Source: Bacteroidota bacterium (GTDB lineage: Bacteria; Bacteroidota; Bacteroidia; Chitinophagales; Chitinophagaceae). From it: DNA of 64,000 bases. The stretch lies in the NCBI GenBank assembly GCA_018267955.1, contig JAFDXL010000009.1, positions 1,204,717 to 1,268,716 of the forward strand, written 5' to 3'. Shown here piece by piece: positions 11,364-47,772 of the stretch (positions within the stretch are counted from its first letter, which is position 1; each line of letters begins with the position of its first letter). The notes beneath the pieces are model-generated. The model saw nothing but the letters and a program-made list of their open reading frames with translations, was not told the origin of the DNA and did not search any database. The position numbers and the translations under genes were made by a program.

Positions 11364-12731
11364 ATGTTGGAGAGTAGTTTTGGACTTACATTCTTCCTTA
11401 AGAGTCCGCAGAAAAAAATAACCACACACAGGAAGACAGACATAAGATATGTCTACATGAGAATTACAGTTGATGGTATTCCTAAAGAAACATCTACCAA
11501 ACGCAAATGGGATGCTAACCGCTGGGATCAAAAGACAGAAAGAGCAATCGGAAATAAAGAAGATGCACGCGTCTTGAATTTCTTCTTGGATTCAATGGTA
11601 ATGAAAGTGCATCAATGCAAAAGTGACCTTATATACAACGAGCAGACGATCACAACTCAAAAGATCATGGATTATGTTTTGGGCAGAATTGCACCAAAAG
11701 CAAAAGTTCTCGAGGAGTTTCAATTGCACAATGATGAAATGTTAGCATTGGTGCCAAAAGAGTATGCGAAAGGTACACATGAACGATTTGTGACTGCGCG
11801 TTCACATGTTGGGGAGTTTATCAAATTCAAGTATCACGTTGATGATATGGAATTCAGGGAACTGAATTATGAGTTTATCAAAGACTACGAGTTTTATTTG
11901 AAAACTGTCAGGAAATGCAGCAACAATACCACCTTAAAGTACATATCTAATTTTAAGAAAATCATTCTCAGGGCAATTGATAAAGAGATCATCGTTGCCG
12001 ATCCGTTCAAAAGGTTCAAGGGCAAGAAAACAAAGCTTATGAAAAAACCCCTGAGCATGCAGCAGTTAACTATTCTTGAAAATCATCAATTCTCAACCCC
12101 GCGTTTGGCAACAGTCAGAGATATTTTCATATTTCAATGTTATACAGGCCTTGCTTATATTGATGCATTTAATTTAAAGAAATCGGATATAAAAACAGGT
12201 ATTGACGGAGAGCAATGGATCATTTCGGCAAGACAAAAAACAGGCAGTCCAATTAATATACCTCTGTTGCCAAAAGCAGTGGAAATCATGGAAAAATATA
12301 GGCATCATCCTATATGTCTAAAACGAGGTTCGGTACTGCCAGTGAGTTCCAATCAAAAAATGAATGAATACCTGAAAGAAATTGCGGACTTGTGTCAACT
12401 GGATTGTACACTTAATACGCACAAAGCAAGACGTACATTTGGCAGTACTGTAACATTAAATAACCATGTACCTATCCATGTTGTAAAAGAAATGCTCGGC
12501 CATCATTCTGTTAAGCAAACAGAAGAATATGCACTCACAGAAGAACAGGCTATAGGCCGGGAAATGCAGGAATTGAAGAACAGGCTGAACAAAAAGGAAA
12601 TAAACAATCCTGATCTTTCATCGGATACAATTTTAAGACTTGAAGCGGAGATACAGGAATTAAAAAAGCAGCTTGCCAAGCAAAATAGCGACCGATCTTC
12701 ATTTCCTAATCAATACACAAGTGTTGCATAA
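11364..12731 (+). CDS. Tyrosine recombinase (ICE integrase)
   Basis: A 455-residue site-specific recombinase. The N-terminal arm-binding domain covers about residues 1-110, the SAM-like core-binding domain about 115-215, and the catalytic domain about 225-395. Visible active-site residues are Lys292 (QKTG), H353-x-x-R356 (HKARRTF), His380 (LGHHS) and the nucleophile Tyr389 (EEYA). The usual first catalytic Arg is replaced: the motif reads TGLAYID (261-267) with Ala264. IntDOT of CTnDOT also lacks this Arg, so the enzyme is probably still active. A coiled, Lys/Glu-rich tail follows residue 395. Its position beside the tRNA marks the left end of the element. Confidence 0.92.
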   Translation: MLESSFGLTFFLKSPQKKITTHRKTDIRYVYMRITVDGIPKETSTKRKWDANRWDQKTERAIGNKEDARVLNFFLDSMVMKVHQCKSDLIYNEQTITTQKIMDYVLGRIAPKAKVLEEFQLHNDEMLALVPKEYAKGTHERFVTARSHVGEFIKFKYHVDDMEFRELNYEFIKDYEFYLKTVRKCSNNTTLKYISNFKKIILRAIDKEIIVADPFKRFKGKKTKLMKKPLSMQQLTILENHQFSTPRLATVRDIFIFQCYTGLAYIDAFNLKKSDIKTGIDGEQWIISARQKTGSPINIPLLPKAVEIMEKYRHHPICLKRGSVLPVSSNQKMNEYLKEIADLCQLDCTLNTHKARRTFGSTVTLNNHVPIHVVKEMLGHHSVKQTEEYALTEEQAIGREMQELKNRLNKKEINNPDLSSDTILRLEAEIQELKKQLAKQNSDRSSFPNQYTSVA

Positions 12732-33801: not shown

Positions 33802-34380
33802 TTGAAAATACAAGCTGACAGAATTGGAACGATTGGGTTATTCATTACAGCGATAACCTCCCCTTGCTGTTTCCCGTTATTTGGAGTGGCTTTCGCCTCA
33901 TTAGGCTTTGGCAGTTTTGAATTATTTGGAGGCTGGACCATGTGGGTTTTTCAAAGTTTAGTACTGCTGTCTCTGGCAGGTACATTTGTATCGTACAGGC
34001 AGCATAGGTGTTTATATCCTTTGCTAATTGCATTACCAAGTGCTTTGCTGATTTTTATTGGTTATCATTTTATCAATAATGATTACTGGGTTTATTATTT
34101 ATATGCCGGCATGTTCGGGTTGCTGATCGCTGCAGGCGTTAACTATTACAGGACTAAATTGCATAACCGTATGAAAATAGAATTAATTTCTGTGGTCACC
34201 TGCCCATTCTGTGGCCATCAAAAGTCTGAACAAATGCCAATAAATGCATGTACCTATTTTTATGAGTGTACATCCTGTAGAACCCGGTTAAAGCCCAAAC
34301 CTGGAGATTGCTGTATATTCTGCAGCTATGGAACGGTTAAATGCCCACCGGTGCAGCAGGGGAACGATTGTTGCTCCTGA
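33802..34380 (+). CDS. MerC-like membrane protein fused to a GDCCxxC metal-binding domain
   Basis: A 192-residue fusion. Residues 1-115 match MerC-type mercury transporters: four helices and a metal-thiol pair in TSPCCFPLFG (residues 19-28). Residues 123-192 match the small GDCCVxC heavy-metal protein: CPFCGHQ, then CTYFYECTSCRTRLKPK, then PGDCCIFCSYGTVKCPP. These are usually two adjacent genes. Start codon: TTG at 33802 is chosen because no ATG is available and the resulting MKIQADRIG start matches MerC family starts. It is likely a heavy-metal cargo of the ICE. The metal itself is inferred. Confidence 0.82.
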   Translation: MKIQADRIGTIGLFITAITSPCCFPLFGVAFASLGFGSFELFGGWTMWVFQSLVLLSLAGTFVSYRQHRCLYPLLIALPSALLIFIGYHFINNDYWVYYLYAGMFGLLIAAGVNYYRTKLHNRMKIELISVVTCPFCGHQKSEQMPINACTYFYECTSCRTRLKPKPGDCCIFCSYGTVKCPPVQQGNDCCS

Positions 34381-36699: not shown

Positions 36700-36878
36700 T
36701 TTTAAAGGCACAGGACAGCTAATATACGCATTGAAAACGAAATGTTTTTCCTGCTTGTAATACTGCAGGGGGTAAATCTACAGCATCGCTCTTTATAGCA
36801 CGGCTATGAAGGTGTTTGTGTAAATTATTTTTTGAGCAGCAGGTCCGGGTTTATTTTTTCGTATCAACTGCAGCCTTT

Positions 36879-39842
36879 ATGAACCAGGAATATTCCATGT
36901 CCCAATATCATTTTCATCCCTTATTGCTGCTCAGGACGCCAGCCTGCAATTTTTCTTCTTATGATGGTAGCTATTGGGAGGATGGCCTGGACGATCCTTT
37001 GTTCCGGCTGGCTATCAGAATTGCCAGCCAGTCCCTTTACCAGGAACTGGGAAAACAGGAAACAGGTAGCTGGAATAATAAAAAATTTCAGCATAGCCTC
37101 TGGAAATACCTGAACCGTATGAAGTTCCGGCCAACGCCATTCGGTTTATTTGCCGGTTTTACAGTTGTCGATTGGGCAAACAAAAGCGGGATCATTTTAG
37201 AAGACCATGGCATCATGCATATTCAGCCTGATTTCTCAACGGTGGTCAGGGAAAGCGAGGCCTTGTTTTCAAACAATGCAGCGTATTACAAGCTTAACCC
37301 AACAATATACCCGGTAATGAATACTTACAGGTACCTGCGCTATCACAATATATCTTCATCAGGTAAACGAACCTGCGAAGTTGCTACGGTAGAAAAGGAT
37401 GAATACATAGCATGCCTGCTGGAATATTGCACACAGCCACTTTTATGCGAACAGATAGCTGTCTGGATAAGCCAGCGGTTTGAGTTTAATATCAAAGATT
37501 GTACAGAGTATATTTCAGCGCTTATTTCAGCGCAGATTCTTATGCGGGAAGGCGAGGTCAATATTTGTGGAGCTGATCGCCTGCAGCATTTACCGGAACA
37601 ACAAAATAAAGGTTTCGCTAAACAGAGTGTTTGGATAATGCTGACAAAAAGAAAAGGAAATATTTCGGAGCTGCCATTAGAGCAAATGTATATCAACCTG
37701 GAGCGCCCGGTTCTGTCAGGCACTTTGGATAATCTTTACCAGGAGCCGATTGTAAACGGCATGCATTGCCTGCAACATCTCTTACCACATTTGCAGCCGG
37801 CAGGCCTCGAACAATTCAAAACCGCTTTTACAAAAAAATATGACCGGCAGCATAAGCTGCTTATTGAAGTGCTCGACCCGGAGATCGGTATCGGTTATCA
37901 CGGCTTGGGTAATGCCCAACGGGCTCCGGCTTTACTTAGAGATGTTGAAGTGGCATTATCAATAGATGGCAAAAGGCCATTGGAATGGACACCCGTGCAT
38001 GCATTGCTGCTGGATAAATGGAATACATCGGCTCCTTACGCTATCCTGCAATTGGAGGAAAAGGACATCAGCAAATTGGATAGCCCCAAAGCCGCTTTGC
38101 CTAACAGTTGCCCTGTTGTATTTCGCGTTACCAAAGAAGGTTTGGTCATCGAACAGGCAGGCGGTGCTACTGCGACGGCTTTGCTAGGCCGCTTCACACC
38201 ATTAAACACTTCTGTTGAAATGCAGGCAAAGCAAATTGCAAAGGATGAAGAAGCTGCTAACAGTAATGTTGCCTTTGCCGAAATATCCTATATATCAGAC
38301 CTGCATACTGCTAATATAGACCGCAGGGAATCGCTCTATACGTATGAGATACCTGTGCTATGCGGCTCCCTGTTACCGGAAGAACAACAAATACAATTGA
38401 ATGATCTGTGGGTGGCCGTGGAGCACAATGAGATCATGCTTTGGTCTAAACGATTAGGGCGCAGAATTATTCCGCGCCTCAGTTCGGCTTTCAATTATCT
38501 CCGCAGTGATTTACCTGTTTTTCGTTTCCTCTGCGACCTGCAACACCAGGGGCTGCGCGGAAATTTTTCATTCGACATGGAACATTTCTTCCCAGGACTA
38601 TCTTTTTATCCCCGCATTTGTTATAAAGACACCATCCTGCACCTGGCAAAATGGATTATCACAGAAAAAATATTGCGCCCTGTTCTGTCATTGCCCGTTG
38701 CAAAGCAGGTGCCTGCCTTGCGATTGTTACTGGAGGACTTAAACCTGCCTTACTACATTTCGTTAGATGACTATGATAACCAATTGGTATTTAATCTGCA
38801 GAACGATACAGACATGGAAAACCTGCTGGTTTTAATCAAAGCAAAAGATACAATGGTTATCAGAGAATACATTTTTCACGAAGAAAAGAATATAGTGACC
38901 GATACAACAGGCGCCAGCTTCATACACCAGTTTATTGCAGTATTACAACATGATCGCCTGGTATATCAAGGTGTGCCTTTCCCCGGCGCTGTCAGGCAAA
39001 GAGATTGCCAACGCATATTGGTGCCTGGTTCAGAGTGGTTGTATTATAAACTCTATATACATGCCATTCGCAGCAATGAATTATTGAAAGAATATATCCT
39101 GCCCTGCATCCATGGCCTCAGGGTACAGGGATTGATTAAAAAATGGTTCTTTATACGGTATGCAGACCCTGAGCATCATTTAAGGATACGGCTTTATGTT
39201 CACCCGAAGCAAGCAGGGTTTGCGTTGCAGCGTTTTGAGAAGGTGATGGGTGAGCTTGCTTCGTCGGGCATGATACAATCCTACCATATCAGCACGTATG
39301 AAAGAGAGCTGGAGCGTTATACACCGGAACTGATAGAAGACTGCGAAGATTGGTTTTGTGCCGGCACGTCTCTTACCAGTGAATGGATACGCCTGATACC
39401 TGATGATACATCACTCGCCTATTATACTGCCGTGCTGCCCGCCGTGGACGAGATGCTGAAGGCCTTTGGATATGACTATGAAACAGCTATTTTTCTTTTT
39501 GACCGTTCCTTTCGCGGGATGTACCAGCAAAGCCCGATAGATAAAAAGCAGGTACAGGATAAAAGCAGGGAACTCAACCGGCATGTATTTATGCTTGAGC
39601 AGGAACGGGCCGTACCGTTAAAGAAAGCTTTCAAAAAGTTTTGTGTGCAAACATCTGCCTTAGCAAGGAAGGCAAACGCTGCACTGAGCGGTGCAAGAAA
39701 GGAAATATTTTTTATGGACCTGTTACACATGCACCTGAACCGGCTGCTGGTAACAGACAGCTTTCACCAGGAGATGATTCTTTACTATGCCTTATGGAAA
39801 TACTATCAATCCCGGTTATATTTTGCCACCAAGGCATCATAA
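36879..39842 (+). CDS. LanB-type lantibiotic dehydratase with fused SpaB_C elimination domain
   Basis: About 987 residues, the length of full class I LanB enzymes. These activate Ser/Thr side chains with glutamyl-tRNA and eliminate glutamate to leave dehydroalanine or dehydrobutyrine. The Lant_dehydr N-terminal hallmark is MKFRPTPFGLFAGFTV (about 82-95). The C-terminal elimination domain begins near 710 (GSEWLYYKLYIHA) and holds FFIRYADPEHHLRIRLY (about 757-773). ATG at 36879 or 36897 is preferred over TTG at 36816. Its 3' end overlaps the convergent response regulator by 6 bp. No LanC cyclase lies nearby. The likely substrate is the 53-residue peptide at 41741. Confidence 0.92.
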   Translation: MNQEYSMSQYHFHPLLLLRTPACNFSSYDGSYWEDGLDDPLFRLAIRIASQSLYQELGKQETGSWNNKKFQHSLWKYLNRMKFRPTPFGLFAGFTVVDWANKSGIILEDHGIMHIQPDFSTVVRESEALFSNNAAYYKLNPTIYPVMNTYRYLRYHNISSSGKRTCEVATVEKDEYIACLLEYCTQPLLCEQIAVWISQRFEFNIKDCTEYISALISAQILMREGEVNICGADRLQHLPEQQNKGFAKQSVWIMLTKRKGNISELPLEQMYINLERPVLSGTLDNLYQEPIVNGMHCLQHLLPHLQPAGLEQFKTAFTKKYDRQHKLLIEVLDPEIGIGYHGLGNAQRAPALLRDVEVALSIDGKRPLEWTPVHALLLDKWNTSAPYAILQLEEKDISKLDSPKAALPNSCPVVFRVTKEGLVIEQAGGATATALLGRFTPLNTSVEMQAKQIAKDEEAANSNVAFAEISYISDLHTANIDRRESLYTYEIPVLCGSLLPEEQQIQLNDLWVAVEHNEIMLWSKRLGRRIIPRLSSAFNYLRSDLPVFRFLCDLQHQGLRGNFSFDMEHFFPGLSFYPRICYKDTILHLAKWIITEKILRPVLSLPVAKQVPALRLLLEDLNLPYYISLDDYDNQLVFNLQNDTDMENLLVLIKAKDTMVIREYIFHEEKNIVTDTTGASFIHQFIAVLQHDRLVYQGVPFPGAVRQRDCQRILVPGSEWLYYKLYIHAIRSNELLKEYILPCIHGLRVQGLIKKWFFIRYADPEHHLRIRLYVHPKQAGFALQRFEKVMGELASSGMIQSYHISTYERELERYTPELIEDCEDWFCAGTSLTSEWIRLIPDDTSLAYYTAVLPAVDEMLKAFGYDYETAIFLFDRSFRGMYQQSPIDKKQVQDKSRELNRHVFMLEQERAVPLKKAFKKFCVQTSALARKANAALSGARKEIFFMDLLHMHLNRLLVTDSFHQEMILYYALWKYYQSRLYFATKAS

Positions 39843-40571
39843 AAGCCGCTTGCTTTTCAGCAGCATGGGCCGGATGACATCCTGGAGTTCTTTTCGATAG
39901 CTCTGTCCCAGCGCAACAGCACTGCCATCTGAAAGATGAAGCATTCCCGCTTCGATACTGGTGATCTTATCCAGGTTAACGATATAGGATTTATGTACCC
40001 GTTTGAATTTGTGCACAGGCAACGTTGCTTCCATTTCTGTCATAGTGAAATAAGTAAGGTATATATGATCAGGCAGGTGAATACGGATATAATTCTGGGC
40101 GCTTTCTATGTAGGCTATTTCCTGATGATTGATACGAATAAGCTTCCCTTTTCCTTCGCTTTGAATAAAGAAGTGATCCCGTTCGGTTTTTACACCAATG
40201 GAATTGGGCGTTATTTTTTCTTTAGCCCTGCTAACTGCTTTCAGGAAGCGCTGGTAAGATACAGGCTTCAGCAAATAATCTATGGCATCCTTATCAAAGG
40301 CATTCACTGCATACTCACCAAAGGCAGTAGTAAATACAATGCGTGTATATGGCTGTATCAGTTCTGCCAGCTCTATACCGGAGAGTTGAGGCATATCAAT
40401 ATCAAGGAAAGTAATATCGGTTACTATCTCTCCGTTCGTGATCTTGTTGAGCGCCTGCAGAGGGTTCAGTTCCGCGCCTGCCAGTTCCAGTTCCGGTGTT
40501 TTTAGTATATACTTCCTGATCACATCCAATGCATGTTCTTCATTATCTATAATACAACATCTCATTTTCAT
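39837..40571 (-). CDS. LytTR-family response regulator
   Basis: A 244-residue transcription regulator. The receiver domain covers about residues 1-120, with the phosphoacceptor Asp57 in FLDIDMPQLSG. The LytTR DNA-binding domain covers about 140-240, with landmarks IAYIESAQNYIRIHL and FKRVHKSYIVNLDKI. It overlaps the kinase gene by 4 bp, so both are translationally coupled. LytTR regulators often control peptide, bacteriocin or communication genes. The divergent precursor-peptide gene is the natural target. That link is inference. Confidence 0.92.
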   Translation of the reverse strand: MKMRCCIIDNEEHALDVIRKYILKTPELELAGAELNPLQALNKITNGEIVTDITFLDIDMPQLSGIELAELIQPYTRIVFTTAFGEYAVNAFDKDAIDYLLKPVSYQRFLKAVSRAKEKITPNSIGVKTERDHFFIQSEGKGKLIRINHQEIAYIESAQNYIRIHLPDHIYLTYFTMTEMEATLPVHKFKRVHKSYIVNLDKITSIEAGMLHLSDGSAVALGQSYRKELQDVIRPMLLKSKRLL

Positions 40572-41605
40572 AAGCTGATGGTTAGTTCCACTATAAATTT
40601 AACACCATCGTCAATGATTTGCAAATGATGCGCTCCAGGGTAACGTGCCTGAAGCCGGGTCCTTATGTTGCTGATGCCGATATGCAACCTTGCTTCCGGC
40701 GGTTGGTTAGACCTTTTCAGATTAGCGGTCGTAAAGTAAAGTTCACTTCCATGCAGTTTGACTGTTATCATTGCAGGTGCATGAGGATCTGAAAGATTAC
40801 CATGTTTGAACATATTCTCAATGAAGGTAAGCAGTAGCAGTGGCGCTATCCGTTCTTCACTTCCGGAGACTGAATCGCTAATGCAAACATTTATAAACAG
40901 CTTATTATTGAATCGAAGCTGGTTCAACGAAACATAATTCGTTATTTGCTCGACCTCTTTATGCAGGGCTGTTTTGCCATCGGATTCTATCGGGGTCATG
41001 GCATAGCGCATTACATCTGCAAGCAGCAGGATGCCTTCTGATGCTTTAGGCGAAACGCTTTCTATAGAGTTATAAATAAAGTTCAGCGAATTAAATAGCA
41101 AATGAGGATTGATCTGTGCCCTGAGTTGTGCCAGCTCCAGTACCGCCTGCCTTTGCTCGCTTTCCAGTTTTTCTATCCGTAACTCGTCTGCTTTACGGGC
41201 ATTTATAAAACTACGCAAGGTAAACCAATAGGCAATGCTAATACCAAGCATATAAATACCGCGCCACAGAGCGCGTATATAATCTTCTTCGGTAGCACCT
41301 ATAAAAGGGCGGTTTGTTTCCACACGCTCAATAAAAATATCAATACCTATCGTAAAGAGTACGAAAAGGCACATCTCCAGTATTACACTGGTCATCAGTA
41401 CCAACAACGTGTGACGAGCGCGGGTGGCTTCCGTAAACGCTTGTGCATTCACGTAGAACAGCAAGATATCAAGAATATAGAAACCAGCAAACCGCAGCAC
41501 ACTGCCACCACCACCCATTGCAAATACCATGGACACTTCATAAGCAATGAAGATGATCCAGCAAAATATATGCATCAGCAATTTCCGCGATACGGTACGG
41601 AACAT
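40568..41605 (-). CDS. LytS-type sensor histidine kinase
   Basis: A 345-residue inner-membrane kinase. It has about four membrane helices in residues 10-130 (MHIFCWIIFIAYEVSMVFAM, FYILDILLFYV, LLVLMTSVILEMCLFVLFTIGI, GIYMLGISIAYWFTL), then a coiled coil and the His_kinase domain. The phosphoacceptor is His168 in the QINPHLLFNSLNFIYNS motif, and the ATPase is incomplete but typical of the LytS family (LLLTFIENMFKHG). No periplasmic sensor domain is visible, so it may sense a membrane signal or peptide. It is divergent from the precursor peptide gene across 135 bp. Confidence 0.92.
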   Translation of the reverse strand: MFRTVSRKLLMHIFCWIIFIAYEVSMVFAMGGGGSVLRFAGFYILDILLFYVNAQAFTEATRARHTLLVLMTSVILEMCLFVLFTIGIDIFIERVETNRPFIGATEEDYIRALWRGIYMLGISIAYWFTLRSFINARKADELRIEKLESEQRQAVLELAQLRAQINPHLLFNSLNFIYNSIESVSPKASEGILLLADVMRYAMTPIESDGKTALHKEVEQITNYVSLNQLRFNNKLFINVCISDSVSGSEERIAPLLLLTFIENMFKHGNLSDPHAPAMITVKLHGSELYFTTANLKRSNQPPEARLHIGISNIRTRLQARYPGAHHLQIIDDGVKFIVELTISL

Positions 41606-41680
41606 AAAACAACGGTAATGGGCCTTACGAAATATACGAAAAAACCCTTTGTATCTATAGAATCACTCGTTACATGTAAT

Positions 41681-41715
41681 AAATTTTTCAGGGGTTTTTA
41701 CTTGTTCTAATTTTT
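41681..41715 (+). promoter_or_regulatory. Possible promoter/operator of the precursor peptide gene
   Basis: The segment AAATTTTTCAGGGGTTTTTA (41681-41700) is followed by TAATTTTT (41708-41715), a weak TAnnTTTG-like -7 box, 25 bp before the peptide ATG. The first part closely matches TTTTTTCAGGTGTTTTTA at 33510-33527, next to the tra/merC repeat. It may be a shared regulatory element, for example for the LytTR regulator. No strict consensus supports it. Confidence 0.3.
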
Positions 41716-41740
41716 CAATTCATCATTAAAAATTTATAAT

Positions 41741-41902
41741 ATGAAAACAACAAAACATCCGCTGAAACTGAACGCCACACCGCTTTTCCAGTTTGAGAAG
41801 AAAAGCACATCACTGTTCAACACTACCCATCCCACCACCATTACCATCACTACCAGCAGTACCGGCATCATGCACCAGGATGCCATAAAACAGAACGGAT
41901 AA
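41741..41902 (+). CDS. Candidate RiPP precursor peptide, Thr/Ser-rich and cysteine-free
   Basis: A 53-residue peptide, MKTTKHPLKLNATPLFQFEK then KSTSLFN (residues 21-27), then a Thr/Ser-dense core at residues 28-42 (TTHPTTITITTSSTG) and a polar tail IMHQDAIKQNG. Residues 22-41 contain 13 Ser/Thr of 20 and no Cys occurs anywhere. The N-terminus (LKLNATPLFQFEKK) looks like a leader. It lies between the two-component system and the AraC gene, 25 bp from the latter. A 162-bp plus-strand frame with a clear ATG in a non-overlapping gap supports it. Class I lanthipeptide leaders in Bacteroidetes look similar, but the lack of Cys argues against lanthionine formation. Confidence 0.6.
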   Translation: MKTTKHPLKLNATPLFQFEKKSTSLFNTTHPTTITITTSSTGIMHQDAIKQNG

Positions 41903-41926
41903 GCAAACAATTATAAGCCCTGTCCT

Positions 41927-42304
41927 ATGAGAACTTTTTCTTCAATGCGTAAACCTAAACTTAGCAAACTCGACATTGCAGTTTTAAAAGATGTTAGGCA
42001 TTACATTGATAATAATCTTGACATAGACCTTTCTGTAAAAAGCATTGCAACAAAGTTTACAATGAGTGATATTACTTTAAGCAGGCATTTCAGGATATAT
42101 TACAAGATCCCACTTTACACTTTTGTATTGCAAAAACGAATGCAAAAAGCGTTACACGAGATACTTTTTGAAAACGAGGTTTCCTTGAAAGAAATCGCAA
42201 GAAACATAGGTTATAAGCAATACACCAGCTTTATACATGCCTTTTCCAGGCACTATGGTTTTTCACCTTCAGACGTTCCGAGATCTTCAACGAATAATTG
42301 TTAA
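41927..42304 (+). CDS. AraC-type transcription regulator, HTH domain only
   Basis: A 125-residue protein that is essentially one AraC DNA-binding domain. Two helix-turn-helix units are visible: LSVKSIATKFTMSDITLSRHFRIYYKIPLYTFVLQKRM and VSLKEIARNIGYKQYTSFIHAFSRHYGFSPSDV. It has no sensor domain, so it may be controlled by its own level. A start at 41945 (MRKPKL) is also possible. It follows the precursor gene by 24 bp and probably shares its transcript, so it may form a feedback or relay with the two-component system. Confidence 0.9.
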   Translation: MRTFSSMRKPKLSKLDIAVLKDVRHYIDNNLDIDLSVKSIATKFTMSDITLSRHFRIYYKIPLYTFVLQKRMQKALHEILFENEVSLKEIARNIGYKQYTSFIHAFSRHYGFSPSDVPRSSTNNC

Positions 42305-42442: not shown

Positions 42443-42880
42443 ATGAGAAAGCTAACTGTTGATGTTATCTCGGCACTCTTTGTACTGTTGTGGGTTTACG
42501 CAGCCCTATCCAAAATAACAGACTTTGATAAATTCAAAGTACAATTAGGACAATCTCCTTTGCTCACCGCTTTTGCAACATGGGTGGCATGGATAATACC
42601 TACAGTCGAAATTTTGTTAGCAGTACTGCTTGCTATACCGCGTACACGTTTGCCGGCACTCTATGCTTCCTTTAGCTTAATGGTAATGTTCACAGCTTAT
42701 ATAGTTGCCATAACACAGTTCAGTGAATACATCCCTTGTTCCTGTGGCGGCATACTGCAGCACATGTCATGGAATGCACACCTGGTATTTAACCTGCTAT
42801 TCGTAGGGCTTGCATTAACAGCCATAATATTGTTTTTAAATCCGGGCATTAAACATAACACTGCAACAATTAAAACATAA
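42443..42880 (+). CDS. MauE/DoxX-like membrane protein
   Basis: A 145-residue protein with about four membrane helices and the motif PCSCGG between helices 3 and 4, typical of MauE-family proteins. The ends YAALSKITDFDKFKVQLGQSPL and VAWIIPTVEILLAVLL also match. MauE is needed for maturation of disulfide-rich periplasmic proteins in methylamine utilisation, probably as a quinone-linked thiol oxidoreductase. In Bacteroidetes it is often next to a small Cys-rich secreted protein, as here. It begins 138 bp after the AraC gene. Confidence 0.88.
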   Translation: MRKLTVDVISALFVLLWVYAALSKITDFDKFKVQLGQSPLLTAFATWVAWIIPTVEILLAVLLAIPRTRLPALYASFSLMVMFTAYIVAITQFSEYIPCSCGGILQHMSWNAHLVFNLLFVGLALTAIILFLNPGIKHNTATIKT

Positions 42881-42965: not shown

Positions 42966-43184
42966 ATGAAAAGAACAAATTTTCTTTTCGCATCAGCTTT
43001 CGCCTTAGCTATTGGTGGCGCAGCTTTAACACATGCCAGTTCCATTAAGGCTGGTAATGCTGGCTTCCAGAATCCAAACTGCCAATCTGTGGTTACCGAT
43101 TGTGCCACTTCGGGAATGCATGATTGTGACATCACGGTCTACAGCGATGCTGCTTGCAAAAACCAGCTGACAAGAAAACCGTAA
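42966..43184 (+). CDS. Small secreted four-cysteine protein (DUF6520-like)
   Basis: A 72-residue protein with an export signal (RTNFLFASAFALAIGGAALTHA). The mature part of about 48 residues has Cys39, Cys46, Cys54 and Cys64 in NPNCQSVVTDCATSGMHDCDITVYSDAACKNQ. Short secreted proteins of this pattern occur next to MauE in Bacteroidetes, and MauE may form their disulfides. It follows mauE by 85 bp and ends in a strong terminator. It is not a likely LanB substrate because it is a Sec-type export product. Confidence 0.75.
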   Translation: MKRTNFLFASAFALAIGGAALTHASSIKAGNAGFQNPNCQSVVTDCATSGMHDCDITVYSDAACKNQLTRKP

Positions 43185-43247: not shown

Positions 43248-44288
43248 ATGACACAAAGAAAGTTGATTATTATATCAGCATGTGCATTGATAAGTGTACT
43301 AATGGTTTTGGGATTGTATGCATATACGTCAAGGCAAAATCATTATGGAAACGGTTTTATACGTTTATATCCACCACATGTTTTGTCGGGAACAAAGGAA
43401 TTGAATTTAGGATCTGATTCTCATTATATCTGTGGGCTGAATAAATCCAATATATACTTAGGCAATTTTGATAATCCTAAAGAATTCATTGTTGTAGATA
43501 AGAATTTAACAACTTTTAAGTCCCAAACGTTAGCAATACCTGGTGGTATGTTCATTCAGAAAAGTTCAGCAATTCTAAAAGCAGATTCCCCTAATCTCTA
43601 TCTAATTGATGGAATAAATGACAATTTATTAAGATGGCAGTTAAACTCATTACAGTTGTTGGAAGTTCATAAACTAATATCAAATACCCTGGCTCTTCCT
43701 ATTTCATCAGGTTCTATTGTAATGAGGCTTTATAATAATCAGGCTCGTCAAAGCTATTTAATAAAGTATAGCTATGACTCACTTGCACCAACGGCTAAAC
43801 TCCAACTTCAAAAGCAGGTAGATGGTTTCTTTTGCAGTGATGGTGAACTTCATTATTCAAAACCTCTGAGCAGTTTGGTCTATGTTTATTTCTTCCGTAA
43901 TCAATTTATTTGCATGGATACTAACCTGAATATACAATCCTATGGAAAAACTATTGATACAAATACCAAAGCCAAAATAAAAGTAGCCGCTATCCGAAAT
44001 AACACGTATACTTTGAGTTCTCCTCCTATGTATGTCAATAATACAGCCTGTGTTGATGGTGAGTTATTGTTTATTAATTCCAGGCTAAAAGCTACAAATG
44101 AATCCAAAGAACAATTCAATCAAGCATCTGTTATTGATATCTATTCATTAAAAGCAGGTCTATATAAATATAGCCTATATGTACCGGACTTTAATGGCAA
44201 AAAGATCACAAATTTCAAAGTCGACGACAGGCATCTATTTGTTGTACAAGGTAAATATGTATCGGTCTTCCAATTGAATCTTCCCTAG
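43248..44288 (+). CDS. Membrane-anchored protein, unknown function
   Basis: A 346-residue protein with an N-terminal membrane helix (LIIISACALISVLMVLGLYAY) and a large, beta-rich periplasmic domain. Repeated blade-like segments such as YLIDGINDNLLRWQLNSLQLLEV suggest a beta-propeller. It follows the MauE/DUF6520 pair in the same direction and ends where the interrupted redoxin gene's 3' end starts. I do not assign a family. It could be a partner of the secreted peptide, by location only. Confidence 0.68.
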   Translation: MTQRKLIIISACALISVLMVLGLYAYTSRQNHYGNGFIRLYPPHVLSGTKELNLGSDSHYICGLNKSNIYLGNFDNPKEFIVVDKNLTTFKSQTLAIPGGMFIQKSSAILKADSPNLYLIDGINDNLLRWQLNSLQLLEVHKLISNTLALPISSGSIVMRLYNNQARQSYLIKYSYDSLAPTAKLQLQKQVDGFFCSDGELHYSKPLSSLVYVYFFRNQFICMDTNLNIQSYGKTIDTNTKAKIKVAAIRNNTYTLSSPPMYVNNTACVDGELLFINSRLKATNESKEQFNQASVIDIYSLKAGLYKYSLYVPDFNGKKITNFKVDDRHLFVVQGKYVSVFQLNLP

Positions 44289-46833: not shown

Positions 46834-47772
46834 TTAGCAATTAGAGGTCAAAATATCATACTTCAGCCTCACACCGCTACATTTCAATACAGTATCTTCA
46901 AAGCGTATAGTCCCGTCTTTCTTACGAGTGTTATAACGATATGCACTTTCATTGCAATAAGCCTGTAAGTGCTTTCTTGATATATTATGGTATATACCAA
47001 CAACCATCCTATCAAACAAGCTAAATGCACCCTCTATGGTATTTGTATGGTAAATACCATCCCTTGAATACTCATTGATAGAATGGTCTACTACGCCATG
47101 ATGCGCAAAGTCTTTGCCTATTGTTTGATAGGTAGATGCGCTATCGGTCATTAATACAGAAGTTGGATCAACATGCTTTTTAAGTAATTCCTTTTCATTC
47201 TCATGCGGATCTATTACTTCAAAGCGTATTTTATTAGAACGTTCTATATAACCTGCAACAACTGTTTTGTTATCTGTTTTACCACGCTTGCGGTCTTTTA
47301 TTTCTTTACGCTTTTTATTGCTCATGTTCTTAACCTTGCCGCCCACTACCGTTGTATCGGTTTCTACAATAACGCCATCGCCGCCTAATGCTTCGGGAGC
47401 CAATTCTTTCAATGTTTCGCGTATGCGATGCAAGAGGAACCAGGCACTTTTTTGATGTATGCCCAAATCGCGAGATAATTGTAAAGATGATATGCCCTTT
47501 TTATGATTGCAGCATAGATAGATAGCCGCAAACCATGTACGCAATGGCAATTTACTATTCTCGAATATAGAGCCGGTAAGCGCACTAAATTTCTTTTGGC
47601 ATTCTATATTCCTGCACTTATAGCCTCGATTGGTTATGTATGGATTTTCGGCACCACAATGAGTGCATGTAATACTATCTACCCACCTAATGCTTGTCCA
47701 GTAAGCCATACAAGTTTCTTCATCCTTGAAATAGTCGAATAACTGCGGAAGGGTTTTGAATTGAGCAAACAT
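46834..47772 (-). CDS. IS1595-family transposase
   Basis: A 312-residue DDE transposase. The N-terminal zinc ribbon is CTHCGAENPYITNRGYKCRNIEC (about residues 36-58), followed by a helix-turn-helix (GISSLQLSRDLGIHQKSAWFLLHRI). The DDE core includes VETDTTVVGG, LMTDSASTYQTIG, HSINEYSRDGIYHTNTIEGAFSLFDRMVVGIYH and NESAYRYN. Family length and layout are normal and no frameshift is seen, so it is probably functional. It mobilises the 3457-bp element that surrounds it. Confidence 0.93.
   Translation of the reverse strand: MFAQFKTLPQLFDYFKDEETCMAYWTSIRWVDSITCTHCGAENPYITNRGYKCRNIECQKKFSALTGSIFENSKLPLRTWFAAIYLCCNHKKGISSLQLSRDLGIHQKSAWFLLHRIRETLKELAPEALGGDGVIVETDTTVVGGKVKNMSNKKRKEIKDRKRGKTDNKTVVAGYIERSNKIRFEVIDPHENEKELLKKHVDPTSVLMTDSASTYQTIGKDFAHHGVVDHSINEYSRDGIYHTNTIEGAFSLFDRMVVGIYHNISRKHLQAYCNESAYRYNTRKKDGTIRFEDTVLKCSGVRLKYDILTSNC

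Follow-up and report, generated by a model that had tools for sequence, protein, structure and literature searches.

A conserved, mostly cysteine-free peptide family linked to LanB and a LytS/LytTR pair in Bacteroidota: a likely pheromone circuit with lantibiotic chemistry

The window analysed here, a stretch of 64,000 nucleotides of contig JAFDXL010000009.1 from a Chitinophagaceae assembly (GCA_018267955.1), encodes a LanB-type dehydratase beside a LytTR-family response regulator, a LytS-type histidine kinase and a short precursor peptide (Table 1). These genes are likely to form a pheromone circuit comparable to agr but employing lantibiotic chemistry, in which a LanB-dehydrated peptide would be read by the LytS/LytTR pair. 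Sequence comparison supports conservation of the peptide, its linkage to the sensor pair, an intact dehydratase site, an operator, co-variation of peptide core and sensor, and frequent absence of LanC, whereas dehydration, export, sensing, the sign of the feedback and the outputs are what we infer. The initial annotation, made from the window alone, had described LanB, the LytS/LytTR pair, a 53-residue Thr-rich peptide and an AraC regulator as one cluster for a ribosomally synthesised and post-translationally modified peptide (RiPP). Open reading frames (ORFs) and Pfam matches place all of these genes where it had put them. Its RiPP reading holds for a LanB without clustered LanC, a conserved Cys-free peptide and a probably undescribed RiPP type; the signalling logic had been missed.

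Related loci were collected at several scales. LanB was found at E ≤ 1e-20 in 33 of 294 genomes of the family sample, and the closest relative (G144, 44% identity) has the identical order LanB–LytTR–LytS–peptide–AraC–MauE–hypothetical. G006, G235 and G067 encode similar peptides divergently from lytS, and in G039 a similar peptide shares its strand with lytS. Scanning named genomes with the LanB alignment gave 118 confirmed loci, of which the best 80, up to 19 kb in length, were kept; these include Chitinophaga, Niastella, Flavihumibacter, Mucilaginibacter, Pedobacter, Daejeonella, Hufsiella, Pararcticibacter, Olivibacter and Pontibacter, and contain LytS in 77 cases, LytTR in 76 and LanC in 4. 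When flanking ORFs of 84 loci were clustered, LanB (84), LytS (81) and LytTR (80) were the sole families present in most loci, followed by SusD-like (22) and MauE-type (21) proteins; a SufC-like ATPase (14 loci) and a protein resembling the major facilitator superfamily (7 loci) look like local neighbours. No LanC was recognised as a widely shared flank family in this set, non-Pfam families being judged by eye.

The window peptide comprises a basic leader (approximately residues 1–22, boundary set by eye) and a Thr/Ser-rich core. Candidate peptides were picked by position and composition for the LytS genes of the named loci, the window and five more loci, and 81 of 89 such genes gave one. Two picks proved wrong (L080, 377 nt; L119, 390 nt) and two were duplicates (L061 and L072), which left 77. 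A pick was available for 73 of the 80 named loci, and L084 and L119 among the remaining seven have a peptide on closer look. The median length is 51 residues, with 27% Lys plus Arg in the first 22; the remainder contains 24% Thr and 7% Ser, as against 8% Thr in the leader, a composition that helped to select the candidates. The leader typically ends in an aromatic F.F-like motif, and DPT(T) recurs in the core (DPT in 46 of 77). Hidden Markov models (HMMs), from whose training the tested genera were left out, recovered the peptide at E ≤ 0.01 in 22 of 23 Pedobacter loci (2805 small ORFs), in 23 of the 28 lytS-bearing Mucilaginibacter loci (29 in all; 3493 small ORFs) and in 24 of the 31 lytS-bearing loci from elsewhere (36 in all; 4487 small ORFs). 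Matches were divergent-adjacent to lytS in 71 of 74 cases, and the other three also lie beside it, as a tandem copy (L122), on the same strand (L055) or overlapping the annotated lytS start (L119). The match of the window peptide listed in Table 1 was obtained with an HMM trained solely on Mucilaginibacter and Pedobacter peptides.

Comparison of the window peptide with its nearest relative (L060) gave a ratio of nonsynonymous to synonymous substitution rates (dN/dS) of 0.18, biased low by choosing the pair for peptide identity. Nonsynonymous differences were proportionately fewer than synonymous ones (pN < pS) in all 45 pairs sharing at least 60% LanB identity, at a pooled ratio of 0.37, these pairs not being independent. 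Both comparisons indicate conservation of the peptide frame and purifying selection on it. A chance ORF was rejected on the basis of the held-out HMM tests, the purifying selection and the operator described below. Searches of 35 members of the family alignment against Pfam and NCBIfam returned one chance-level match each (E 0.05 and 0.09), and five members had no match in PHROG.

LanB matches Pfam Lant_dehydr_N (E 6.8e-83) and Lant_dehydr_C (E 8.7e-53) as well as NCBIfam TIGR03891, and its ORF has an alternative TTG start at 36816. Residues R14, Y80, R83, R87, W616 and H961 of NisB have been reported as important or essential in dehydration (PMC4341554). Their equivalents in the window protein are R19, Y77, R80, R84, W592 and H950, as counted by hand from the alignment, with the R14 equivalent placed by motif. 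All six sites are invariant where aligned in the 89 LanBs of the clade delimited below, two sequences being gapped at N-terminal sites. The same applies to the equivalents of NisB R464, R784, R786 and E823, which also have functional roles, and the R826 equivalent is Arg in 84 and Lys in 5, so that eleven NisB-equivalent residues are invariant or nearly so. An AlphaFold2 model computed from 53 sequences reached a predicted local distance difference test score (pLDDT) of 87, compared with 52 from 6 sequences. Its best fold matches were MadB, MibB and NisB (E 3.8e-50 to 1.9e-41), with template-modelling (TM) scores of 0.57–0.61 and root-mean-square deviations of 19–20 Å over the whole chain, and the domain arrangement is thus not closely matched. 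Given the conserved residues and the dehydratase fold matches, LanB is expected to function as a dehydratase.

A midpoint-rooted tree of 110 LanBs places 89 in one group (support 0.99) separate from 21 LanBs of the LanC-linked type. Of the 89 members of this clade, 82 lie no more than 3 kb from LytS and 4 kb from LytTR, and 2 no more than 2.5 kb from LanC. Seven depart from the rule, of which L126 and L062 have the module 4 and ~11 kb away and L068 lies at a contig edge; the other four are considered below.

At the window locus, the full-length LanB carries intact glutamylation and elimination sites, and neither a clustered LanC nor a core Cys is present, for which reason the system is not filed as a lanthipeptide; LanC-poor LanB loci of this kind are not ordinary lanthipeptides. 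The window contains no LanC, as first annotated, and the sole PF05147 (LanC-like) match of the genome lies ~1.09 Mb from the window LanB on the same contig, where it adjoins another LanB and a precursor that contains Cys and has a leader of the KLELNKEKISGINN type. This second class I locus is complete (G000:C10:150753-155669, L002), with LanC, LanB and a 70-residue Cys-containing precursor. A Cys-bearing lanthipeptide precursor just outside was rejected for the window locus because it belongs to this other LanB–LanC locus. No YcaO or pyridine synthase was found among 27 window proteins scanned with Pfam, the flank clusters of relatives being read by eye only.

Cyclisation or thiolation of the dehydrated peptide in trans, whether by a distant LanC, by glutathione or Cys, or through other cross-links, seems very unlikely. 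Besides the remote LanC of this genome, such a route would draw on the LanC-like matches above the family cut-off, some of them fragments, in 28 of the 75 carrier genomes searched (of 76 requested), and on the Cys residues of 16 of the 77 peptides, 9 of which have one after residue 22 and 1 of which has two there. Set against it, 61 of the 77 peptides are Cys-free, that of the window included, 68 lack Cys after residue 22, and PF05147 is absent from 47 of the 75 genomes. The initial annotation had named a LanC with a Cys-bearing precursor in related genomes, or a peptide frame that is not conserved, as grounds for abandoning its reading; the LanC and Cys counts given here and the conserved frame speak against abandoning it.

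The peptide was further traced beyond the collected loci. In an independent class sample of 395 genomes, the source genome included, the peptide was matched at E ≤ 0.01 in 10 and LanB at E ≤ 1e-60 in 40. Three weak peptide matches (G531, G711 and G713; E 0.001–0.009), from genomes with no LanB at the latter threshold, were discarded. Among 49 carrier genomes searched, 47 gave peptide matches at E ≤ 0.001, often several each. Thirty-three further modules, 5 from the class sample and 28 from carrier genomes, were read over 5–10 kb; LytTR was present in 32, LytS in 30 and LanB in 12, with none seen in 21, two of which sit near a contig end. Two of the modules without LytS (L233 and L247) are likewise near a contig end. 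Three modules contain tandem arrays of 5–6 near-identical precursors between lytS and lytTR (L207:6719-7661, L213:3798-4773 and L224:4956-5707). Judged by these frequencies, the peptide belongs with the kinase–regulator pair more than with LanB, and one LanB can probably serve several peptide modules in trans. The initial annotation had not seen that LytS/LytTR is a near-invariant partner of the peptide and that LanB often lies at another site of the genome; an AraC gene after the peptide is confined to the closest relatives.

Such separation, together with a few LanB loci lacking a peptide, is what one would expect if LanB and the peptide–sensor module were mere neighbours, with LanB acting on another substrate and the peptide serving as an unmodified signal or regulatory leader peptide. 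We regard this as highly improbable, given that all seven genomes with convincing peptides in the class sample encode a LanB with an adjacent peptide and that Thr is enriched in the core over the leader, an enrichment stemming partly from candidate selection.

A motif search over 67 non-redundant lytS–peptide intergenic regions yielded a 36-bp motif, TTTATATA...GTTNGTGTAATAA, with a log-likelihood ratio of 685, compared with 119–131 in four shuffles run with fewer starts. Its occupancy is 0.92 and its usual position 40–78 nt 5' of the peptide start codon. The strongest recurrence of the right half-site is exactly 21 bp upstream, which corresponds to 9-bp repeats with a 12-bp spacer, and a 9-12-9 direct-repeat geometry has been described for LytTR regulators (PMC2766830, PMC6193735). 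Scanning 1.52 Mb of loci returned 83 sites of at least 20 bits, compared with 0 in 435 kb of shuffled sequence; 53 of the 83 lie directly 5' of peptide genes, partly by construction because the motif was trained there. Of the other 30, 25 were inspected. Those in L070 and L084 precede second or missed peptides, and those in L063 and L066 secreted-looking proteins; several Pedobacter sites have no clear downstream gene. Three further sites (L105, L113 and L139) precede LanB itself. At L062:11361-11396, L067:2993-3028 and L096:7111-7146, the operator lies 5' of Cys-containing lanthipeptide-like precursors in loci that also hold LanC, which suggests that the circuit may control bacteriocin-like clusters there. 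In the window, two half-sites 21 bp apart are located 55 nt 5' of the peptide start codon and constitute the sole site of at least 20 bits in the 64 kb. No other clear target was found in the genome, the window site having 1 mismatch and 9 others having 2, compared with 14 for a reversed-pattern control. A LytTR-type operator is thus predicted at the precursor promoter, as autoregulation would entail.

LytS has three hydrophobic segments on the Kyte–Doolittle scale, and its sensor half was compared with the peptide in 103 modules with LytTR (of 104 collected). Peptide distance correlated with sensor distance (Mantel 0.315; partial given kinase 0.276, p 0.003), and the correlation with the kinase half given the sensor was -0.006. 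In a close-pair test of 65 pairs with LanB identity of at least 58% and one module per locus, the partial correlation of core and sensor given kinase was 0.49 (within-cluster permutation p 0.0005), and that of core and kinase given sensor 0.10 (p 0.36). Mean identities were 0.67 for LanB, 0.83 for the leader, 0.44 for the core, 0.55 for the sensor, 0.74 for the kinase and 0.82 for LytTR, over 66 rows including one artefact row (L066/L066) that was removed for the 65-pair test. L108 and L110, for example, share 97% identity in LytTR and 93% in the kinase, with 35% in the sensor and 16% in the core. Similarly, L071, L075, L076 and L107 are 83–90% identical in LanB and 93–98% in LytTR; only L071 and L107 share both core (79%) and sensor (87%), and the other five pairs range over 24–31% in the core and 56–76% in the sensor. 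Core and sensor thus co-vary while leader and output domains are conserved, with the three tandem loci as exceptions, and this pattern in the alignments is that expected of pherotypes. Genetic coupling of the precursor gene to its own kinase and regulator is a further property of pheromone systems found here.

The co-variation also bears on an antimicrobial RiPP that induces its own synthesis, as nisin does via NisRK, and whose main role is to kill rivals. LanB chemistry is best known from lantibiotics, and the operators ahead of lanthipeptide-like precursors in L062, L067 and L096 would fit such a role. We nonetheless consider it unlikely, as the core follows the LytS sensor half, 21 of the 33 further modules have no LanB in the stretch read, and immunity functions, an ABC exporter or a protease were not recognised among the widely shared flank families, which were named by eye. 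The near-invariance of LytS/LytTR, the operator and the co-variation point to a signal rather than a natural-product cluster.

In the pheromone circuit favoured here, LanB would bind the basic leader of the 53-residue precursor, glutamylate several core Thr/Ser residues and then eliminate to give dehydrobutyrine and dehydroalanine. As the core offers no Cys and the cluster no LanC, lanthionine rings would not form, and leader removal and export would fall to unclustered machinery. The membrane half of the neighbouring LytS would detect the mature core, and LytS would phosphorylate LytTR; the latter would bind the direct-repeat operator 5' of the peptide gene, with probably positive feedback. 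LytTR would also drive genome-specific outputs: araC, mauE and adjacent cotranscribed genes are the probable ones here, and Cys-containing lanthipeptide-like precursors or secreted proteins would be those elsewhere.

Several observations weigh against this circuit, beginning with the LanC-like matches and Cys-containing peptides counted above. In L067, LanC adjoins a LanB of the clade with a Cys precursor a few kb off, so ring formation is possible in some systems. Four clade LanBs (L025, L057, L074 and L133) have no LytS/LytTR within the distance limits, G568 retains LanB with only a LytTR remnant, no LytS and no peptide match, and the L246 module has LytTR and no LytS over the 3.5 kb covered on the relevant side. 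Many other operator sites are stronger than that of the window, which is altered in the conserved half-site. Neither an exporter nor a leader protease stood out among the widely shared flank families of the 84 loci, with non-Pfam families judged by eye. Finally, the cores of L207, L213 and L224 are 88–100% identical though their sensors share only 49–59%, and kinase sensor regions generally evolve faster, which makes the co-variation supportive rather than proof.

Among known systems, AgrBDCA, ComCDE, BlpRHC and SilCR–SilAB resemble the present one in encoding a small precursor alongside a membrane-bound histidine kinase and a regulator of the LytTR type, in placing LytTR direct repeats 5' of the precursor promoter, and in showing core–sensor co-variation as well as tandem and paralogous modules. 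Maturation of agr-type pheromones relies on AgrB or a GG-peptidase exporter, whereas here the maturation enzyme would be LanB, the kinase is of the PF06580 LytS type, the hosts are Bacteroidota and no clustered exporter was recognised. No AgrB-like family was present among the 27 window proteins scanned, and no AgrB-directed search was made in relatives. We know of no peptide-pheromone two-component system in which LanB serves as maturation enzyme; on the proposed circuit, the system belongs to this kind, with LanB as a new maturation enzyme.

Class I lanthipeptides, exemplified by nisin and the LanBC systems of Bacteroidota, share the full-length LanB, in which both half-reaction domains are present and the active sites conserved, the leader followed by a Ser/Thr-rich core, and a nearby two-component system. 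They differ in that the present loci usually have no nearby LanC, that LanT/LanP were not recognised, that the peptides are mostly Cys-free, and that the LanBs group apart from the LanC-linked type. Nisin autoinduction likewise has a LanB-modified peptide inducing its own gene, as we propose here; nisin, though, is a cyclised antibiotic and NisR an OmpR-type regulator, whereas here the peptide module often has no nearby LanB. Dehydration without LanC is known chemistry in thiopeptides, goadsporin and dehydrazoles. Thiopeptides and goadsporin employ split LanBs or azole-/pyridine-forming partners, and for dehydrazoles the available account describes LanB-like enzymes in split form or with such partners; neither split LanBs nor azole-/pyridine-forming partners were recognised here.

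The family appears to be undescribed. Full-text literature searches, with subscription papers mostly outside their coverage, found no account of a LanB–peptide–LytS/LytTR system. The lanthipeptide survey of Walker et al. is described as anchored on LanC (PMC7268733), and LanC-free systems would accordingly be missed. In the sections available, a Bacteroidales survey reports no LanB in that order (PMC10352776), a paper on Pedobacter natural products mentions RiPP clusters solely as a share of cluster types (PMC12181424), and a review of two-component quorum sensing assigns peptide autoinducers to Gram-positive bacteria and, for Bacteroidetes, mentions only homologues of parts of such pathways (PMC8895600).

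We further think it somewhat probable, with more reserve than for the circuit itself, that these loci reflect widespread peptide quorum sensing in Bacteroidota, based on linear, dehydrobutyrine-rich and mostly Cys-free RiPPs from a LanC-independent dehydratase clade. This would involve pherotype-like diversification, genomes with several peptide–receptor modules served in trans by a common LanB, and transport of the modules on conjugative elements; both the RiPP class and the signalling chemistry would be new. If so, many environmental Bacteroidota would have a predicted peptide language whose ligands, receptors and operators can be named, and the retention of a lantibiotic dehydratase without a cyclase would be explained.

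Table 1. Features of the window locus, with positions counted from the first nucleotide of the window.
Feature	Position	Strand	Basis
LanB-type Glu-tRNA-dependent dehydratase, 987 aa, glutamylation and elimination domains	36879..39842	+	Pfam, NCBIfam, NisB residues, AlphaFold2 model
LytTR-family response regulator (Response_reg + LytTR)	39837..40571	-	Pfam
LytS-type histidine kinase, N-terminal membrane sensor region	40568..41605	-	Pfam His_kinase E 5.5e-20
Putative LytTR operator, 9-12-9 direct repeat	41650..41685	+	Motif 23.6 bits, repeat geometry
Precursor peptide, 53 aa, Cys-free	41741..41902	+	HMM E 8.3e-8; family alignment
AraC-type HTH regulator	41927..42304	+	Pfam HTH_18 E 3.3e-16
MauE-type membrane protein	42443..42880	+	Pfam MauE E 7.2e-33
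346-aa protein without assigned family	43248..44288	+	Relatives near peptide module in L051, L112, L135, L226

The LytTR and lytS genes are oriented against LanB, and the peptide and AraC genes are divergent from lytS. The AraC gene starts 24 bp 3' of the peptide gene and probably shares its transcript, an arrangement restricted to the closest relatives (L060 and L051, the latter identical to L061). As the nearest relatives retain araC and mauE after the peptide, both are likely outputs here; the MauE-type gene and the gene for the 346-residue protein are listed as possible candidate outputs. A small ORF after mauE (42966-43184) encodes a secreted-looking protein of 72 residues with several Cys and no Pfam match above cut-off, and a comparable Cys-bearing small ORF occurs at L051:6637-6873.

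The source genome comprises 4.18 Mb in 10 contigs. LanB of the window had no match in the four other genomes of the same genus in the family sample, and the locus is therefore patchy. Conjugative-transposon genes (TraM, TraJ, TraG and RteC) adjoin the peptide module at 11006-36574, and an integrase (11364-12731) adjoins tRNA-Ser; the module is probably cargo of an integrative conjugative element. In a search for the end of the element, no stretch of more than 12 bp from the tRNA-Ser region recurred at another place in the window. A MerC-type mercury transport protein (33802-34380, E 1.3e-13) is encoded near the conjugation genes, and an IS1595-type transposase (46834-47772) lies ~4.5 kb past the AraC gene.

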